From: Frigoriglobus tundricola
GTDB lineage: Bacteria > Planctomycetota > Planctomycetia > Gemmatales > Gemmataceae
Direction: 5' to 3'
DNA length: 64,000 bases
NCBI RefSeq assembly: GCF_013128195.2
Contig: NZ_CP053452.2
Location: 1,612,001-1,676,000, forward strand
Translations under genes and position numbers: made by a program
Notes under the pieces: generated by a model
The model's input: the letters and a program-made list of their open reading frames with translations, nothing else
The model's database searches: none
What the model was told of the DNA's origin: nothing
In this document: one piece after another, positions 56,234 to 62,393 of the stretch
Position numbering within the stretch: the stretch's first letter is position 1
Layout of the letters: each line of letters opens with the position of its first letter

Positions 56234-57412
56234 TCAGGTCGTGTAGTCCGCGTTCAGCTTCACGTACTCGTAGGTCAGGTCACTGGTGTAGAACGTGCAG
56301 CGGCCGGTACCGAGCGTGAACCGGAGCTTGAAGTGAACCTCGCGGTTGTGTTTCAGGTACCCGGAGGCCGCGGCCGCGTCGAACGGAAGGGGCGTTCCGG
56401 CACGGTACAAAGGCAGGTCGCCCATCCAGAGGGAGAGGTCCTTCTCGTCGAACGTCACACCGGAATAGCCGGCGGCGGACACGACCCGGCCCCAGTTCGG
56501 GTCGGCGCCGAAGACGGCCGTCTTCACCAGCGCGCTCTCGGCGATCGTTTTGGCGATCTGCTTGGCTTCGGCGTCGGTGCGGCAGCCGTCCACGTCGATG
56601 GTAATGAGGTGTTCAGCGCCTTCCGCGTCGATGATGATCTTGCGGGCGAGTTCCACACACACGTGCCGCACCTCGAGCGCGAACGCGTCCAGATCTTGCC
56701 CCGCGAGCGGCGGGCCGCTGCCGTTGGCGAGCAGGAACACGGTGTCGTTGGTGCTGGTGTGGCCTTCTACCGAGATGCAGTTGAAGCTCTGTTCCGCGGC
56801 CGTTTTGAGGATGCGGTGCAGATCGGTCGGGGCGACCGCCGCGTCCGTCATAACAAAACCGAGCATGGTCGCCATGTTCGGGCCGATCATGGCGGCGCCT
56901 TTGGCGAACCCGGTCACGGTGAAGCCGCTGTGCTGGCGCGTGGCGATCTTGATGCCGGTGTCGGTCGTCAGGACGGCGTGGGCGGCGTTCGAGAGCGCGT
57001 CGCGACCGGCCGCGGCCTCGCGCGTGGCCCTCGGAATGCCCGCCTCCAGCACCGGCATCGGCAGCGGGCGGCCGATCACTCCCGTAGAAGCGACCAGGAC
57101 TTGCTCCGACGGGCAGCCCAGTTCGCCGGCGACAAGGTCGGTCATGCGGCGGGCGTCGGCCAGTCCCTGCTCGCCGGTGCAGGCGTTGGCGTTACCCGAG
57201 CACACGACAACGGCCCGTGCGTCCGCACGCGGTAAGCGCTCGCGGCTCACCTGGACGGGGGCGGCACACACGCGGTTCTGCGTGAACACGCCGGCCGCGG
57301 CCGCGGGCGTATCGCTGATAATCACGGCGAGGTCGCGCCGGTCCGGTTCCTTACGTAGCCCGCTGACGGTGCCCGCGAACCGGTAGCCGCGGGCCAAGTG
57401 CCATTCGCTCAT
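56234..57412 (-). CDS. argJ: Bifunctional glutamate N-acetyltransferase / amino-acid acetyltransferase ArgJ
   Basis: This 392-aa enzyme of arginine biosynthesis transfers acetyl from N-acetylornithine to glutamate and, in the bifunctional form, also uses acetyl-CoA. It is made as a precursor that cleaves itself before the threonine in MATMLGFVMTDA; that motif is intact. Also present are GVIGRPLPMP, KGAAMIGPN, EGHTSTNDTVFLLANGSG and ADPNWGRVVSAAGYSG. The protein ends LTYEYVKLNADYTT, the normal C-terminus. The gene stands alone here, with no other arg gene nearby. Confidence 0.97.
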   Translation of the reverse strand: MSEWHLARGYRFAGTVSGLRKEPDRRDLAVIISDTPAAAAGVFTQNRVCAAPVQVSRERLPRADARAVVVCSGNANACTGEQGLADARRMTDLVAGELGCPSEQVLVASTGVIGRPLPMPVLEAGIPRATREAAAGRDALSNAAHAVLTTDTGIKIATRQHSGFTVTGFAKGAAMIGPNMATMLGFVMTDAAVAPTDLHRILKTAAEQSFNCISVEGHTSTNDTVFLLANGSGPPLAGQDLDAFALEVRHVCVELARKIIIDAEGAEHLITIDVDGCRTDAEAKQIAKTIAESALVKTAVFGADPNWGRVVSAAGYSGVTFDEKDLSLWMGDLPLYRAGTPLPFDAAAASGYLKHNREVHFKLRFTLGTGRCTFYTSDLTYEYVKLNADYTT

Positions 57413-57531
57413 GCTCCAATCGTATACACAGGGGCACGGGGGTGGAAGGAGCGCCCCCGAAGAGCGCGGGAAACGGCCCGGAGCGGGTTAAGATGGGAAG
57501 GATTTCGGGTCGCGCTGCGTGTGGGGTGCCC

Positions 57532-58260
57532 ATGTCCGACGGCGAGGCGCTGCTCTCGGTCATTCTGGCCCAGCCGGACGAGGACGTGCCGCGGCTCGTC
57601 TACGCCGACTGGCTGGACGAGAACGGTACCGAGTCCGACCGCGCCCGGGCCGAGTTCGTCCGGGTGCAGGTCGCGCTGGCCGGCGTCGGGCCGACGGAAC
57701 TGGTGCCCTGGAACCAGCCGGTCGTGGCACAGCGGGGGCGCGAGAAATTGCTCCTCGCCGCGCACGGGGCGAACTGGCTCGCCCCGCTCCGGGCGCCCGG
57801 CGGCCCGCTCCAGAGCGAGGCGACGCACGGGCAGTTCCGGCGCGGGTTCGTGGAGGTGGTGTGGATGCCCGCGGCGTGGTTCGCGGTGCGGGCCGACGTG
57901 CTGTTCGCCCGCGTACCGGTCCGCGAACTGCGCGTCACGCGGGCCACGGCGGAAGAGCTCGCGGCGCTCGTCGCGCACGGACACTTCCCGCGCCTGCGAT
58001 CGCTCGAACTGTCGGACCAGAGGCTCGGCGATTCCGTGGCCCTCGTCCTGACCCGACAGCCGGCGGTAGCGGCACTGACCCGCTTACGGCTCCGCGGGTG
58101 CGGGCTGACCGACGCCGGCGCCTGCCGGCTCGCGGACGCCGACTTCGACTGGCCGCTCCGGGAACTCGACGTCTCCCTGAACTCGCTCAGCCCCTACGGC
58201 GTGGCGGCCCTGCGGGCCCGGTTCGGCGAAGCGATCGTGTGTACGACGGGGGCGGAGTAA
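57532..58260 (+). CDS. TIGR02996 domain protein with leucine-rich repeats
   Basis: This 242-aa protein begins with the planctomycete TIGR02996 domain (~1-50: SVILAQPDEDVPRLVYADWL, then DENGTESDRARAEFVRVQ). A variable middle follows, then ribonuclease-inhibitor-type leucine-rich repeats at ~150-230 (RLRSLELSDQRLGD, LTRLRLRGCGLTDAGACRLA, LRELDVSLNSLSPYGVAAL). It is likely cytoplasmic with a protein-binding role; the function is unknown. The ATG at 57532 was chosen because the domain starts there. It is divergent from argJ. Its stop codon is directly followed by the terminator of the opposite gene. Confidence 0.9.
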   Translation: MSDGEALLSVILAQPDEDVPRLVYADWLDENGTESDRARAEFVRVQVALAGVGPTELVPWNQPVVAQRGREKLLLAAHGANWLAPLRAPGGPLQSEATHGQFRRGFVEVVWMPAAWFAVRADVLFARVPVRELRVTRATAEELAALVAHGHFPRLRSLELSDQRLGDSVALVLTRQPAVAALTRLRLRGCGLTDAGACRLADADFDWPLRELDVSLNSLSPYGVAALRARFGEAIVCTTGAE

Positions 58261-58292
58261 AAAGAAAAAACGGGAGGCTCTCGCCTCCCGTT
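58258..58292 (-). terminator. Rho-independent terminator of the globin gene
   Basis: On the minus strand, AACGGGAGGC-GAGA-GCCTCCCGTT (10-bp perfect stem, 4-nt loop) is followed by TTTTCTTTTTA. It begins 24 bp after the stop of the tandem-globin gene. On the plus strand there is no T-tract, so it probably acts in one direction only. Confidence 0.9.
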
Positions 58293-58315
58293 CGCGTGCG
58301 CGGGCTGTCGAGTGG

Positions 58316-59449
58316 TCAGTTCTTCTCGACGATGTCGGGGCGGGTGCTGTCGACGATCTTCACGAGCTCGTCGATCTCGGTCTGCGGGACCTTGTACTTC
58401 TTGAGCGTGTCAACGAGGTCGGCGGCCAGGGCGTTGAACTCGGCGTCGGTGATGCCCATCCCCTTGTGCGACTCCTTCATGCTCTTGCCGGAGTACTTGA
58501 GCGGGCCGCCGGTGGTCTGGCTGATCAGTTCGACCAGCGTCTTCTCCAGGTGCGCCACCCCCTTCTCGTCGAGCTTGAACTTGCCGTTGCGGGTGAAGTT
58601 CACCTTCTTGTCCGCGGCCGCCGTCGCCACGAAATCGTGAACCACGGCCTTCACCGCCGGCTCGCCCCCCAACCGGTCCCACAGCGGCTTGATCGACAGC
58701 TTTTCCGGCGCTTTCCCAGTTGCCTTTTCGACGATGTCGGCGCGCGTGCTGCCGACGATCTTGAGCAGCTCGTCCGTTTCGGCCTTCGGTACGTTGTACT
58801 TCTTCAGGACCGTAACGAGGTCGGCGGCCAGGGCGTCGAACTCGGCGTCGGTGATGCCCATGCCCTTGTGGGCGGCTTTCATGTCTTTGCCGGTGTACTT
58901 GAGCGGCCCGCCGGTGGTCTGGCTGATGAGTTCGACCAGCGATTTTTCCAGTGCGGGAAGCGCCGCGGCGTCGATCTTCTTGCCGCGGGTGAAGTTCACT
59001 TTCGGGTCGTCGATGGCGACCAGTACGAAGTCGTGAACGACGGCCTTCACCGCCGCCTCGCCGCCCAGACGGTCCCACAGGGCCTTCTTCGGCGCGTCCT
59101 TCGGCGGGGCGATTTCGTTCTGGATCTCGTCGAGGGCCGCACGCAACTCGAACGCGGCGTCGGCGATCTTCATCTTTCGGGCGCGTTCCAACCGGGTCTT
59201 GGCGGTCGCCTGGAGCCGGGGCCGGTGGTCCAACAGCGGGACCACGCCGAGCAGCGTGCCCTCGTACAGCCGGTAGCAGCCGCCGTGATCGCCCTTGTTG
59301 AAAATGTCGGTCCCGATCAGCGCCGCTTCGTACACGCTGGAGACCACCCGCTTGTCCAGATCGGCCCGCTCGAGCGGCTTGTCCTGAGCCCGCGTCAACC
59401 CGACCGTGCCGGCCAGGAGGAGGGCCGCTAGAAGCACCCGCACTCGCAT
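58316..59449 (-). CDS. Secreted protein with two tandem truncated-globin (group 1-like) domains
   Basis: This 377-aa protein has a signal peptide (VRVLLAALLLAGTVGLTRA) and an N-terminal helical region of unknown type (~25-117). Two homologous globin-like domains follow (~123-242 and ~255-377). Each has LWDRLGGE.AVKAVVHDFV, VNFTR, LVELISQTTGGPLKY and HKGMGITDAEF. The histidines H194 and H328 match the proximal haem ligand of group-1 truncated haemoglobins. Export of such a globin is unusual. The ATG at 59449 is fixed by the signal peptide. A strong terminator follows. Confidence 0.88.
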   Translation of the reverse strand: MRVRVLLAALLLAGTVGLTRAQDKPLERADLDKRVVSSVYEAALIGTDIFNKGDHGGCYRLYEGTLLGVVPLLDHRPRLQATAKTRLERARKMKIADAAFELRAALDEIQNEIAPPKDAPKKALWDRLGGEAAVKAVVHDFVLVAIDDPKVNFTRGKKIDAAALPALEKSLVELISQTTGGPLKYTGKDMKAAHKGMGITDAEFDALAADLVTVLKKYNVPKAETDELLKIVGSTRADIVEKATGKAPEKLSIKPLWDRLGGEPAVKAVVHDFVATAAADKKVNFTRNGKFKLDEKGVAHLEKTLVELISQTTGGPLKYSGKSMKESHKGMGITDAEFNALAADLVDTLKKYKVPQTEIDELVKIVDSTRPDIVEKN

Positions 59450-59693
59450 GATCGTCCCCTTCGAGAAAAAAGGATGTGAAACGGGACCGCCCGCGACCCG
59501 GTCGTCGTACCGGGTCGGTGTCCGGTGGGAGTGACCGCCACACACGCAACAGTGTACCCGAGCGCGCCGTTCGGGTGAACGGTCCTGCAAATTTCCGTTG
59601 GCCGAAGCGCCGCAGATTCAATTTCTTTGTGAAACCCGTACCCGGCCGAGCCTATCGTATGAATATGAGGGTTGCACGCGGGAGACGACGACC

Positions 59694-60935
59694 ATGAGTG
59701 ACTACGACTACACCCCGCGCCGCCGGCGCGACGAGGACGACGACGACGACCGACCGGTGCGGCGGCGGTTCCGGCCCGAGGAGCGCCCCGGGCGCGGGCC
59801 GGCGTATTACGCGCTGTTCGTCGTGCTGGGCGTCGTCATCGGCGGGCTCGTGCTGTGGGGCGTGATCGGGCTCGCGAAGTTCCGCGGCACCAGGCCGGGG
59901 CTCGACCCCTCCGCGCAGCCGCGCGAGACGACCCCGGGCGCCCCGCTGGACGCCGAGGAACAAGAAGCCGTCACCCTGTTCGAGCGGGTGCGGGATTCGG
60001 TGGTGAACGTGGACGTCGTGTTGGTCCGGCAGGGGCGGCTCGACGAGCAGCCGACCGAGCAGCAGACCAGCGGCGGGTCCGGGTTCGTGTGGGACGCCGA
60101 GGGGCGCATCGTCACCAACTACCACGTCGTCGCGGACGTGACCAAGCGGCCCGACGTCACGCAACTGCGCGTGGTGCTGGCGGACCGCTCCGCGTACACC
60201 GCCCAGCTCCTCGGCACGGCGCCGGACAGCGACCTGGCGGTGGTGCAGATCAGCGCGCCCAAAGACAAGCTCAAGCCGATCGCGGTGGGCACGTCGGCCG
60301 ATCTGAAGGTGGGCCAGAAGGCGTACGCCATCGGGAACCCGTTCGGCCTCAGTTTGACCATGACGAAGGGCATGGTCAGCTCGCTCAACCGGATCATCGA
60401 ATCGCCGTCGGGGGCGCGGATCCCCAAGGTGATCCAGACGGACGCGGCCATCAACCCCGGCAACTCGGGCGGCCCGCTGCTCGACAAGAGCGGGCGGCTG
60501 ATCGGCGTCAACACGTCGATCGCCACGCCGAACGGCGGTAACGTGGGCATCGGGTTCGCGGTTCCGGTGGACACCGTGAACCGGGTGGTGCCGGAACTGA
60601 TCCAGAGCGGCCGGTCGCTGCGGCCCGATCTGGGGGTGAAGCTGTACGACGAGCGGCGCCTGCGTCAGGCGCGGTACGATCACGGGGTCATGATCGACCG
60701 GGTCGCCCCGAACGGTCCCGCGGCGAAGGCCGGGTTGCGCGGGGTGCAGTACAGCTCCCGGGGCGTGCCGGAGCAGCCGGGCGACCTGATCGTGGCGATC
60801 AACGGTCAGACGGTGAACGACATGGAGGACTACGAGCGGGTTCTACGTGACCTGAAACCGGGCGAACCGGTGCCTGTGAAGTTCGTCCGCGGGACGAAGC
60901 CGATGGAGCTGACGGTTACTGTTGGCGGGGTGTGA
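59694..60935 (+). CDS. Membrane-anchored HtrA/DegP-like serine protease (S1C) with PDZ domain
   Basis: This 413-aa protein has a charged cytoplasmic N-terminus (RRRRDEDDDD), one transmembrane helix (YYALFVVLGVVIGGLVLWGV), a trypsin-like domain and a PDZ domain (~320-410). The protease domain has catalytic His in TNYHVVADV, Asp in DSDLAVVQI and Ser in NPGNSGGPLLDKSG. GGAGACGACGACC precedes the ATG at 59694. It is a periplasmic quality-control protease, divergent from the globin gene across a 244-bp gap that must hold both promoters. Confidence 0.95.
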   Translation: MSDYDYTPRRRRDEDDDDDRPVRRRFRPEERPGRGPAYYALFVVLGVVIGGLVLWGVIGLAKFRGTRPGLDPSAQPRETTPGAPLDAEEQEAVTLFERVRDSVVNVDVVLVRQGRLDEQPTEQQTSGGSGFVWDAEGRIVTNYHVVADVTKRPDVTQLRVVLADRSAYTAQLLGTAPDSDLAVVQISAPKDKLKPIAVGTSADLKVGQKAYAIGNPFGLSLTMTKGMVSSLNRIIESPSGARIPKVIQTDAAINPGNSGGPLLDKSGRLIGVNTSIATPNGGNVGIGFAVPVDTVNRVVPELIQSGRSLRPDLGVKLYDERRLRQARYDHGVMIDRVAPNGPAAKAGLRGVQYSSRGVPEQPGDLIVAINGQTVNDMEDYERVLRDLKPGEPVPVKFVRGTKPMELTVTVGGV

Positions 60936-60963
60936 GGTTGAAACGCGGGGCCGCGTTTCTGTC

Positions 60964-61025
60964 CCCGGGACCGCGGCCGTTTTGGTCGCTCTTCGCGGTG
61001 CGGCCGAGACGGCCGCGGCCCCGGG
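60964..61025. repeat. GGGACCGCGGCCG hairpin repeat
   Basis: CCCGGGACCGCGGCCG (60964) faces CGGCCGCGGCCCCGGG (ending 61025), with a 10-nt loop and several mismatches near it. It is the same family as 52893..52954. It lies between the protease stop and the end of the convergent NTF2-like gene. Confidence 0.88.
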
Positions 61026-61055
61026 AAAAGTATCTGCCGGTGAAGTCGGCCCGTA

Positions 61056-61442
61056 TCAGCTTCGGTCAACGAGTCGGCTGATCCGTCCCTCTTCAAAGCT
61101 GTACTCGGATTCTCCGGTCAGTTCCAGCACGGACCCGGCGGTTGGGCCGCCCGGGATGTCTGCCGCCAACACTCCGCGGTAAGCGATGGACACGAGCGCG
61201 GAGTCGGATCGAAACGTGATTCCGGTGATACGCTGCTCCCGCTCCGAAAAGAGCTTCGCCGACTGTTCCGCCAGACTGCGAAACTCGGCCGCCCCGACCG
61301 CCGAAGCCGTGACCTGTCCGCCGGACACGTTTTCAAACACCACGTTCGGAGCGAGCAGGGCGAGCATCCCGTTCACGTCGAACCGGTTATACGCCGCGAC
61401 GAATCGGCCGATCACGTCTCGCATCCCGTCCCCGGTCATCAC
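61056..61442 (-). CDS. NTF2-like / SnoaL-like domain protein
   Basis: This 128-aa protein has the cone-shaped NTF2-like fold signature: RDVIGRFVAAYNRFDVNGML, then ALLAPNVVFENVSGG, and a C-terminal beta sheet ending EYSFEEGRISRLVDRS. Members are isomerases, hydrolases or simple binding proteins, and no catalytic residues can be named here. The gene is 18 bp downstream of the alpha/beta hydrolase gene, so the two probably form an operon. Confidence 0.85.
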   Translation of the reverse strand: MMTGDGMRDVIGRFVAAYNRFDVNGMLALLAPNVVFENVSGGQVTASAVGAAEFRSLAEQSAKLFSEREQRITGITFRSDSALVSIAYRGVLAADIPGGPTAGSVLELTGESEYSFEEGRISRLVDRS

Positions 61443-61460
61443 GAGTCCTCCTGGGCGCGG

Positions 61461-62393
61461 CTACTTCGTCGGTGCCTTCAGTTGTTTCGCGATAAAATCC
61501 CAGGTGTCCTGATACTTTTCCGTCGGGTGATCGGGGTATTTGACGTGGCACTCGACGCCCGCCTTCTCGGCCAGCTTCTGGAAGCCCAGCGCCCAGGCCG
61601 GGGAATGAACCTTGTAGTCCGTTTCCGTGACCTTTTCGGGTTGCGTCAGTCCCCAGTTGTTCTCGAAGTACAGCGGGGGCGTACCCTTGTGAAGCAAGTA
61701 GTCCGGAGACCACGCTTTGAGCACCGGTAGCAGTTCCTCGTGGCGCTTCAGAGACTCCTTGAAGCTGCACCCGAGCGCGGGGGCGCCCCACTCCACGCCC
61801 GGAACCCACTCCTGCATCCGCTTCGGGTCGAGTGTGGGCTGACTGCGGTACGCCGCCGCGCACGTCACCTTGGTCGAAACGCGCGCGACCGGGTCTTTCG
61901 CGTTCGGGTCGGCGCGGTCGGCGGCACACGCCACGTACAGGGCCGGCTGCGCCCCCTGCGACCCGCCGCCCACGGCGATCCGGTCCGGATCGAGCTTCCA
62001 TTTGGCCGCGTGCAAGCGAACGAACTGCACCGCCCGACAGGCATCGGCGGCGACGTAAGAGATCGGCACGGCCACCTTGTCGTCGGTGGCGTCGGTCATC
62101 GTCCGCGTCTGCACGGCGATCACCGCGCACTGCGCCTTTCCGAAGTAATCGAGGGCGGCGGGGTGCTTGGCCGGCTTCCAGATCCCACCGTACCAGACCA
62201 GGACCGGGTACGGGCCGTCGCCTTTGGGCGGCAGGTAGATGTCGAGCCGCTGGTGCTCGTGCGGGCCGTAGGCCACATCGGCGTGGGTCGGCGTGGGGGC
62301 GGCCGCGGTCAGAGGCGCGCTGCCAGAAAGGGCGGCGACAACTCCGACGACGAGGGCGTGAGGAGAACCCGGGGTGAGGAAGATGGCTTTCAT
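61461..62393 (-). CDS. Secreted alpha/beta hydrolase (esterase/lipase-like)
   Basis: This 310-aa protein has a signal peptide (FLTPGSPHALVVGVVAALSG, with cleavage likely near AAAP). The alpha/beta-hydrolase features are LDIYLPPKGDGPYPVLVWYGG (oxyanion region; HGG replaced by YGG), nucleophile Ser in VGGGSQGAQPALYVA and a possible catalytic His in VECHVKYPDHPTEKY. It is likely a carboxylesterase of the Abhydrolase_3/BD-FAE type; the substrate is unknown. The ATG at 62393 was chosen because the signal peptide starts there. Confidence 0.85.
   Translation of the reverse strand: MKAIFLTPGSPHALVVGVVAALSGSAPLTAAAPTPTHADVAYGPHEHQRLDIYLPPKGDGPYPVLVWYGGIWKPAKHPAALDYFGKAQCAVIAVQTRTMTDATDDKVAVPISYVAADACRAVQFVRLHAAKWKLDPDRIAVGGGSQGAQPALYVACAADRADPNAKDPVARVSTKVTCAAAYRSQPTLDPKRMQEWVPGVEWGAPALGCSFKESLKRHEELLPVLKAWSPDYLLHKGTPPLYFENNWGLTQPEKVTETDYKVHSPAWALGFQKLAEKAGVECHVKYPDHPTEKYQDTWDFIAKQLKAPTK

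Follow-up and report, generated by a model that had tools for sequence, protein, structure and literature searches.

The closest described relatives of the protein analysed here are group 1 (N) truncated haemoglobins. In globins of the TrHbN-1 type, represented by M. tuberculosis HbN and Tetrahymena trHb, a Tyr-B10/Gln-E7/Gln-E11 network is associated with high O2 affinity and with enzymatic function, and the sections of PMC11904497 drawn on here describe TrHbN-2 globins as little studied, with hydrophobic residues at B10, E7 and E11, an expected low O2 affinity and a preference for Phe at CD1. SbHbN of S. benthica (PDB 8ugz, 7tt9), a TrHbN-2 whose solved chains are 116 residues long and comprise one domain, has Tyr at CD1, shows no reversible O2 combination and is prone to haem d formation. 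Oxy bands develop in the Tyr(CD1)-to-Phe variant, Y34F, which is described as resembling most TrHbN-2s more closely (same sections of PMC11904497). None of the words periplasm, signal peptide, tandem, export, secretion and Planctomycetes occurs in the main text of that paper. In cable bacteria, a pentahaem cytochrome, lPHCtX, carries one or two terminal truncated-haemoglobin domains, and periplasmic action has been proposed for it (parts of PMC11976967).

The protein described here, encoded within a 64,000-nucleotide stretch of DNA (the window), has the truncated-globin fold and the F8 His in common with M. tuberculosis HbN, Tetrahymena trHb and SbHbN. Where Tetrahymena trHb has Tyr25, Gln46 and Gln50, the protein has Val, Leu and Leu, and its apolar B10/E7/E11 set is shared in character with SbHbN, where the residues are Phe/Val/Val; relative to SbHbN it adds a signal peptide, an N-domain, a second globin copy and a longer loop after helix B. 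Like lPHCtX, as described in the parts of PMC11976967 used here, it is predicted to be exported and belongs with proteins bearing one or two truncated-globin domains, but it has neither a cytochrome domain nor a c-type haem motif, and its single Cys (C58) makes a CXXCH impossible. Unlike flavohaemoglobin, it has no Pfam match to a C-terminal FAD/NAD reductase domain. The kind of globin domain (the TrHbN-2 pattern) and the export of truncated globins in cable bacteria are thus already known. Among open-licence PMC papers, none came up that pairs truncated globin with Planctomycetes or truncated hemoglobin with Gemmata, the combination of a planctomycete N-domain, one to three globins and HtrA synteny was not found among the matches listed, and the word globin is absent from the main text of the Tuwongella subcellular proteome (PMC8567305).

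Layout of the gene and its globin domains

The gene lies on the minus strand at 58316-59449, in an open frame that runs from an ATG at 59449 to a stop codon ending at 58316, and its 377-residue product has the layout proposed in the initial annotation: a signal peptide, a helical N-domain and two tandem truncated-globin domains (all at minus-strand positions). Residues 1-21 (59387-59449), with an MRVR n-region, a hydrophobic core and a TRA/QD cleavage-like site, read as a Sec signal peptide (MRVRVLLAALLLAGTVGLTRA/QD); an alternative TTG start at 59590 appears in the ORF list and would hide it. The N-domain follows at residues 22-115 (59105-59386), where a four-helix bundle is predicted with high confidence (94 residues, pLDDT 95.2, pTM 0.86), and then come globin domain 1 at residues 124-239 (58733-59080), delimited by its PF01152 match, and globin domain 2, also PF01152, at residues 255-375 (58325-58687, with limits from the match to Tetrahymena trHb, PDB 3aq5). 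Nothing above cut-off was returned by NCBIfam for the protein, and nothing at the gathering threshold by Rfam for positions 57000-61500. Close relatives come from Gemmata, Gemmataceae and Isosphaera/Isosphaeraceae. A frameshift or pseudogene at the window locus was ruled out by the open frame, the intact His of both domains and the 59-71% identity of the closest relatives.

Both copies are significant matches to Bac_globin (PF01152), the profile that the initial annotation had named as a check: hmmscan gives E 6e-27 and 94.7 bits (cut-off 21) over two stretches of the protein, and in a search of the whole genome the copies score 1.4e-12 and 3.8e-12, each above the cut-off and together the sole matches. 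The protein also matches PF00042 at 1.4e-6 by hmmscan; a genome search with PF00042 gave no match, but it missed the window's own protein too, so this absence is weak and a further globin in the genome is possible. In the PDB, phmmer found 24 distinct sequences at E <=0.1, all of them truncated haemoglobins or algal/cyanobacterial relatives. AlphaFold2, given the window protein aligned with 29 relatives, predicts the globin fold with high confidence (mean pLDDT 88.9); at a full-length pTM of 0.44, the model does not fix how the domains are arranged relative to one another. With this model Foldseek returned 25 matches at E <=0.001, each spanning one domain only, led by the group 1 truncated haemoglobins of S. 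benthica, M. tuberculosis, Tetrahymena and Paramecium; the best, 8ugz, has E 1.6e-6, a TM score of 0.92 by target length and an rmsd of 1.5 Å. As had been claimed from the letters, each copy has a histidine at the proximal position, H194 (codon 58868-58870) in domain 1 and H328 (codon 58466-58468) in domain 2, both on the minus strand and both aligned with His73 of 3aq5, which we take to be the proximal F8 residue. By profile, predicted 2-over-2 fold and F8 His, the two domains are group 1 (N) truncated haemoglobins.

The two copies are 74% identical to each other, and no sister relation between them was recovered in the tree. Domain 2 is 79% identical to domain 2 of one relative (L017) as against 74% to its own domain 1, so the duplication may predate the species. 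Elsewhere, trees place within-protein copies as sisters with high support in L024, L029 and L035 and in L115, L117 and L189 (L117 and L035 being the same protein), which indicates that tandem duplication has recurred; a single ancient duplication for the whole family is ruled out by these sister copies.

The putative haem pocket and its likely chemistry

Pocket residues were assigned by alignment to 3aq5, with Y25, Q46, Q50 and H73 as reference positions; that Y25, Q46 and Q50 form the B10/E7/E11 network is taken from PDB titles and one reference title. By this alignment B10/E7/E11 are V142/L167/L171 in domain 1 (F8 H194) and V274/L301/L305 in domain 2 (F8 H328), so that both domains have Val/Leu/Leu in place of the TrHbN-1 network and show the hydrophobic B10, E7 and E11 of TrHbN-2, a subgroup further marked by a hydrophobic residue at G8. 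The distal pattern holds across the family: among the 70 globin domains of 53 proteins with an N-domain, Tyr-B10 occurs in none, Gln-E7 in three, Gln-E11 in none and His-F8 in 62, and the three distal positions are apolar in nearly all. Candidates for CD1 are F153 and F285, at a position made uncertain by the loop insertion. In a tree of 38 hand-chosen rows, a 100/100 branch separates 3aq5 and two canonical planctomycete trHbs (L005, L006; TrHbN-1-like) from the 35 other rows, which comprise the exported domains, cytosolic-type planctomycete globins and SbHbN, the last on a long branch and weakly placed.

We favour the reading, at a probability of roughly 0.6, that the protein is exported and carries five-coordinate haem, at which small ligands bind or react. 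The Sec pathway would carry it across the cytoplasmic membrane, as its signal peptide implies; the four-helix N-domain would probably be a docking or packing module; and each TrHbN-2-type domain, to judge from its predicted fold and its F8 His, would hold one haem b. The sixth position would face the apolar pocket, and for this reason O2, NO, CO or peroxide might be expected to be taken up with little hydrogen-bond stabilisation. Such a protein might bind or buffer its ligand reversibly at low affinity, or carry out peroxide or NO chemistry with a periplasmic donor, rather than cytoplasmic NO dioxygenation, and tandem copies would provide more haem per polypeptide.

The initial annotation had offered NO/O2 binding or redox work, and an enzymatic role in NO/O2 turnover is weakened by the residue counts above and by the loss of the proximal His in eight of the 53 proteins. 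A periplasmic role of the classical trHbN kind, either dioxygenating NO or scavenging NO and O2, would be in keeping with the group 1 truncated-globin fold, the F8 His and the presence of M. tuberculosis HbN among the structural relatives. The Tyr-B10/Gln-E7/Gln-E11 network is absent, however, and it is this network that is tied to enzymatic use in the part of PMC11904497 cited above; nor is there a reductase domain in the protein or among the seven neighbours scanned. With Val/Leu/Leu in the distal pocket and no reductase domain, a classical NO dioxygenase is a reading that we regard as decidedly unlikely. The scanned neighbours, which include a divergent HtrA-type protease, ArgJ, an ABC transporter pair, SnoaL-like and BD-FAE proteins and one protein with an LRR match just under the cut-off, contain no electron-donor, reductase or haem-uptake gene among the seven.

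A planctomycete family with a shared N-domain

The initial annotation had suggested a survey of planctomycete genomes for the same architecture. In the window's own family, 58 of 95 genomes have a PF01152 match. A contig scan with two globin peptide patterns as queries found 39 loci, and because it rested on those patterns it is biased towards recovering close copies. Across the class, a search with a full-length alignment gave matches in 191 of 397 genomes, in many of them through single globins or the N-domain alone. After identical and contained proteins had been collapsed and loci L072-L104 left out, 95 proteins remained, and in 53 of them an N-domain is joined to one (37), two (15) or three (1) globins. 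The N-domain plus globin architecture is therefore that of a planctomycete family of 53 distinct proteins, found in the window's family, in family f102 of its order and in f6 of its class. The remainder comprises 40 single globins without an N-domain and two further proteins, L112 and L138. L112 (3-1004) is a contig-end fragment with three globins, and L138 (3875-4922) has its N-domain and globin in two overlapping frames, through a frameshift or a sequencing error. In L106 (3795-5327), three globin domains occur in one protein with a signal peptide, and in L132 and L134 an insertion of ~30 residues after the second helix breaks the N-domain.

A crude Sec test was passed by 50 of the 53 family proteins; it is not a specific test, as it was also passed by 17 of 41 globins without an N-domain, ten of which were false positives produced by the globin B helix. 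Lipoprotein-like signal sequences occur on truncated globins of Hymenobacter (L140-L143), a Rhodospirillaceae MAG (L136) and planctomycetes (L003, L004). Given these and the cable-bacteria cytochrome, as described in parts of PMC11976967, the earlier statement that truncated haemoglobins are normally single-domain and cytoplasmic is too strong.

Within the N-domain C58 and H75 are near-invariant. Pfam has no family for it above cut-off, Foldseek found no PDB match below E 0.001, and VIA-align 2 reached a peak Z of 10.3, the level of ordinary helical bundles; as these fold matches are uninformative, we claim no fold family. Of 392 genomes taken from the phylum, 65 contain the domain, counting that of the window, and at most 13 candidates were scored in each of the other genomes. 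Three more copies lie in the window's genome, one at C1:4188938-4189195 (L073), which opens with a signal-like sequence and has a proline/lysine-rich linker, and two at C1:4550566-4551059 (L074, L075), adjacent to each other and in different frames. In other Planctomycetota (L076-L104) the domain is found with fasciclin, SOUL and CIA30. None of the N-domain frames of L073-L104 has a globin match. HMM matches place the same domain in planctomycete fasciclin-SOUL and fasciclin-CIA30 proteins, which have no globin match in the same frame and in which, where scanned, the helical domain follows fasciclin. Within the Planctomycetota, the N-domain has thus been combined with a range of partners, and two of these are haem-binding folds.

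This reuse bears on the idea that the protein serves to store, transport or shield haem outside the membrane, and not to use it for gas chemistry, with the N-domain as an adaptor shared by planctomycete haem-binding export proteins. Nine N-domain proteins, hand-chosen from the 32 loci L073-L104, were scanned, and SOUL lies beside the domain in three of them (above the Pfam cut-off in one), which would fit such an adaptor, as would a globin copy number that ranges from 1 to 3. The same nine, however, carry fasciclin in eight cases and CIA30 in four, neither of which is to our knowledge a haem fold, and no haem-uptake gene was seen among the seven neighbours scanned; haem handling of this kind seems unlikely to us. 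One of the nine, from the window's genome, had no Pfam match.

The divergent HtrA gene and loss of the proximal histidine

Upstream of the globin gene and divergent from it, on the plus strand at 59694-60935, lies a gene for an HtrA-type serine protease (Trypsin_2 and PDZ), separated by a 244 bp gap if the ATG at 59694 is its start. With tblastn at E 1e-20, and with flanks of unequal length, a divergent HtrA gene was found at 19 of the 45 N-domain loci having at least 1300 bp upstream, as against none of 39 globin loci without an N-domain judged by the same threshold; at E 1e-5 one of the latter (L064) gives a 34% partial match. The protease gene lies within about 0.3-0.6 kb at 18 of the 19 loci and at 1.6 kb in one, and none was found in the examined flank of the other 26. 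As these loci share descent, the arrangement represents conserved synteny and not independent recurrence. In 17 of the 19 divergent intergenic regions, which are homologous and not independent, a -10-like TANACT stands upstream of the globin start, no more than about 140 bp away, compared with a mean of 0.9 of 19 and a maximum of 4 in 500 mononucleotide shuffles; on the strength of this recurrence, TACACT at 59551-59556 (minus strand) is a putative -10 element of the globin gene. The conserved position of the HtrA gene suggests that the globin may be connected with stress or with the quality control of envelope proteins.

The F8 His is present in every domain of 45 of the 53 family proteins. 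The eight that have lost it all carry a single globin: five (L122, L124, L126, L174 and L175) are assigned to the window's own genus, in genomes G013, G025, G009, G012 and G010, respectively, and three (L179, L059 and L061) come from one other genus, g37, so that two or three losses are likely. Three of these genomes of the window's genus (G009, G010 and G012) have no PF01152 match, yet carry the degenerate globin form. Since the His-less proteins keep the N-domain and a globin match, the architecture evidently persists in some lineages after the haem ligand has gone. The divergent HtrA gene is retained by five of the eight (L126, L174, L175, L179 and L059), which are likely orthologues; for L122 and L124 no HtrA match was found within about 4 kb upstream, and the flank of L061 is too short to judge.

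With eight of 53 proteins lacking the F8 His and five of these eight standing beside HtrA, a haem-independent role is possible. On one such reading, the globin fold would now be mainly structural or protein-binding and would act with HtrA as a substrate, adaptor or inhibitor, haem being optional. Such a role would account for the loss of the ligand in proteins that keep the architecture, most of them beside the protease; against it, 45 of the 53 keep the F8 His in every domain, a pattern to be expected chiefly where selection favours haem, and 26 of the 45 loci showed no HtrA in the flank examined. We judge it very unlikely, and the exported haem protein with an apolar, small-ligand pocket remains the reading that we prefer. 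More speculatively, the GCYRLYEG-type N-domain might be an unrecognised planctomycete exported module that presents haem-binding partners (one to three TrHbN-2 globins here, and SOUL elsewhere) beyond the cytoplasmic membrane within an HtrA envelope-stress system, the globin having become a haem-free scaffold in some lineages; we put this forward as a tentative and somewhat improbable proposal.

What emerges is a TrHbN-2-type globin family, predicted to be exported and bearing repeats, that has a partner domain found across the phylum, a protease neighbour in part of its members and natural losses of the haem ligand. In its members with and without the proximal His, and with one to three globin domains, the family offers ready-made comparisons for the roles that globins may play outside the cytoplasm.
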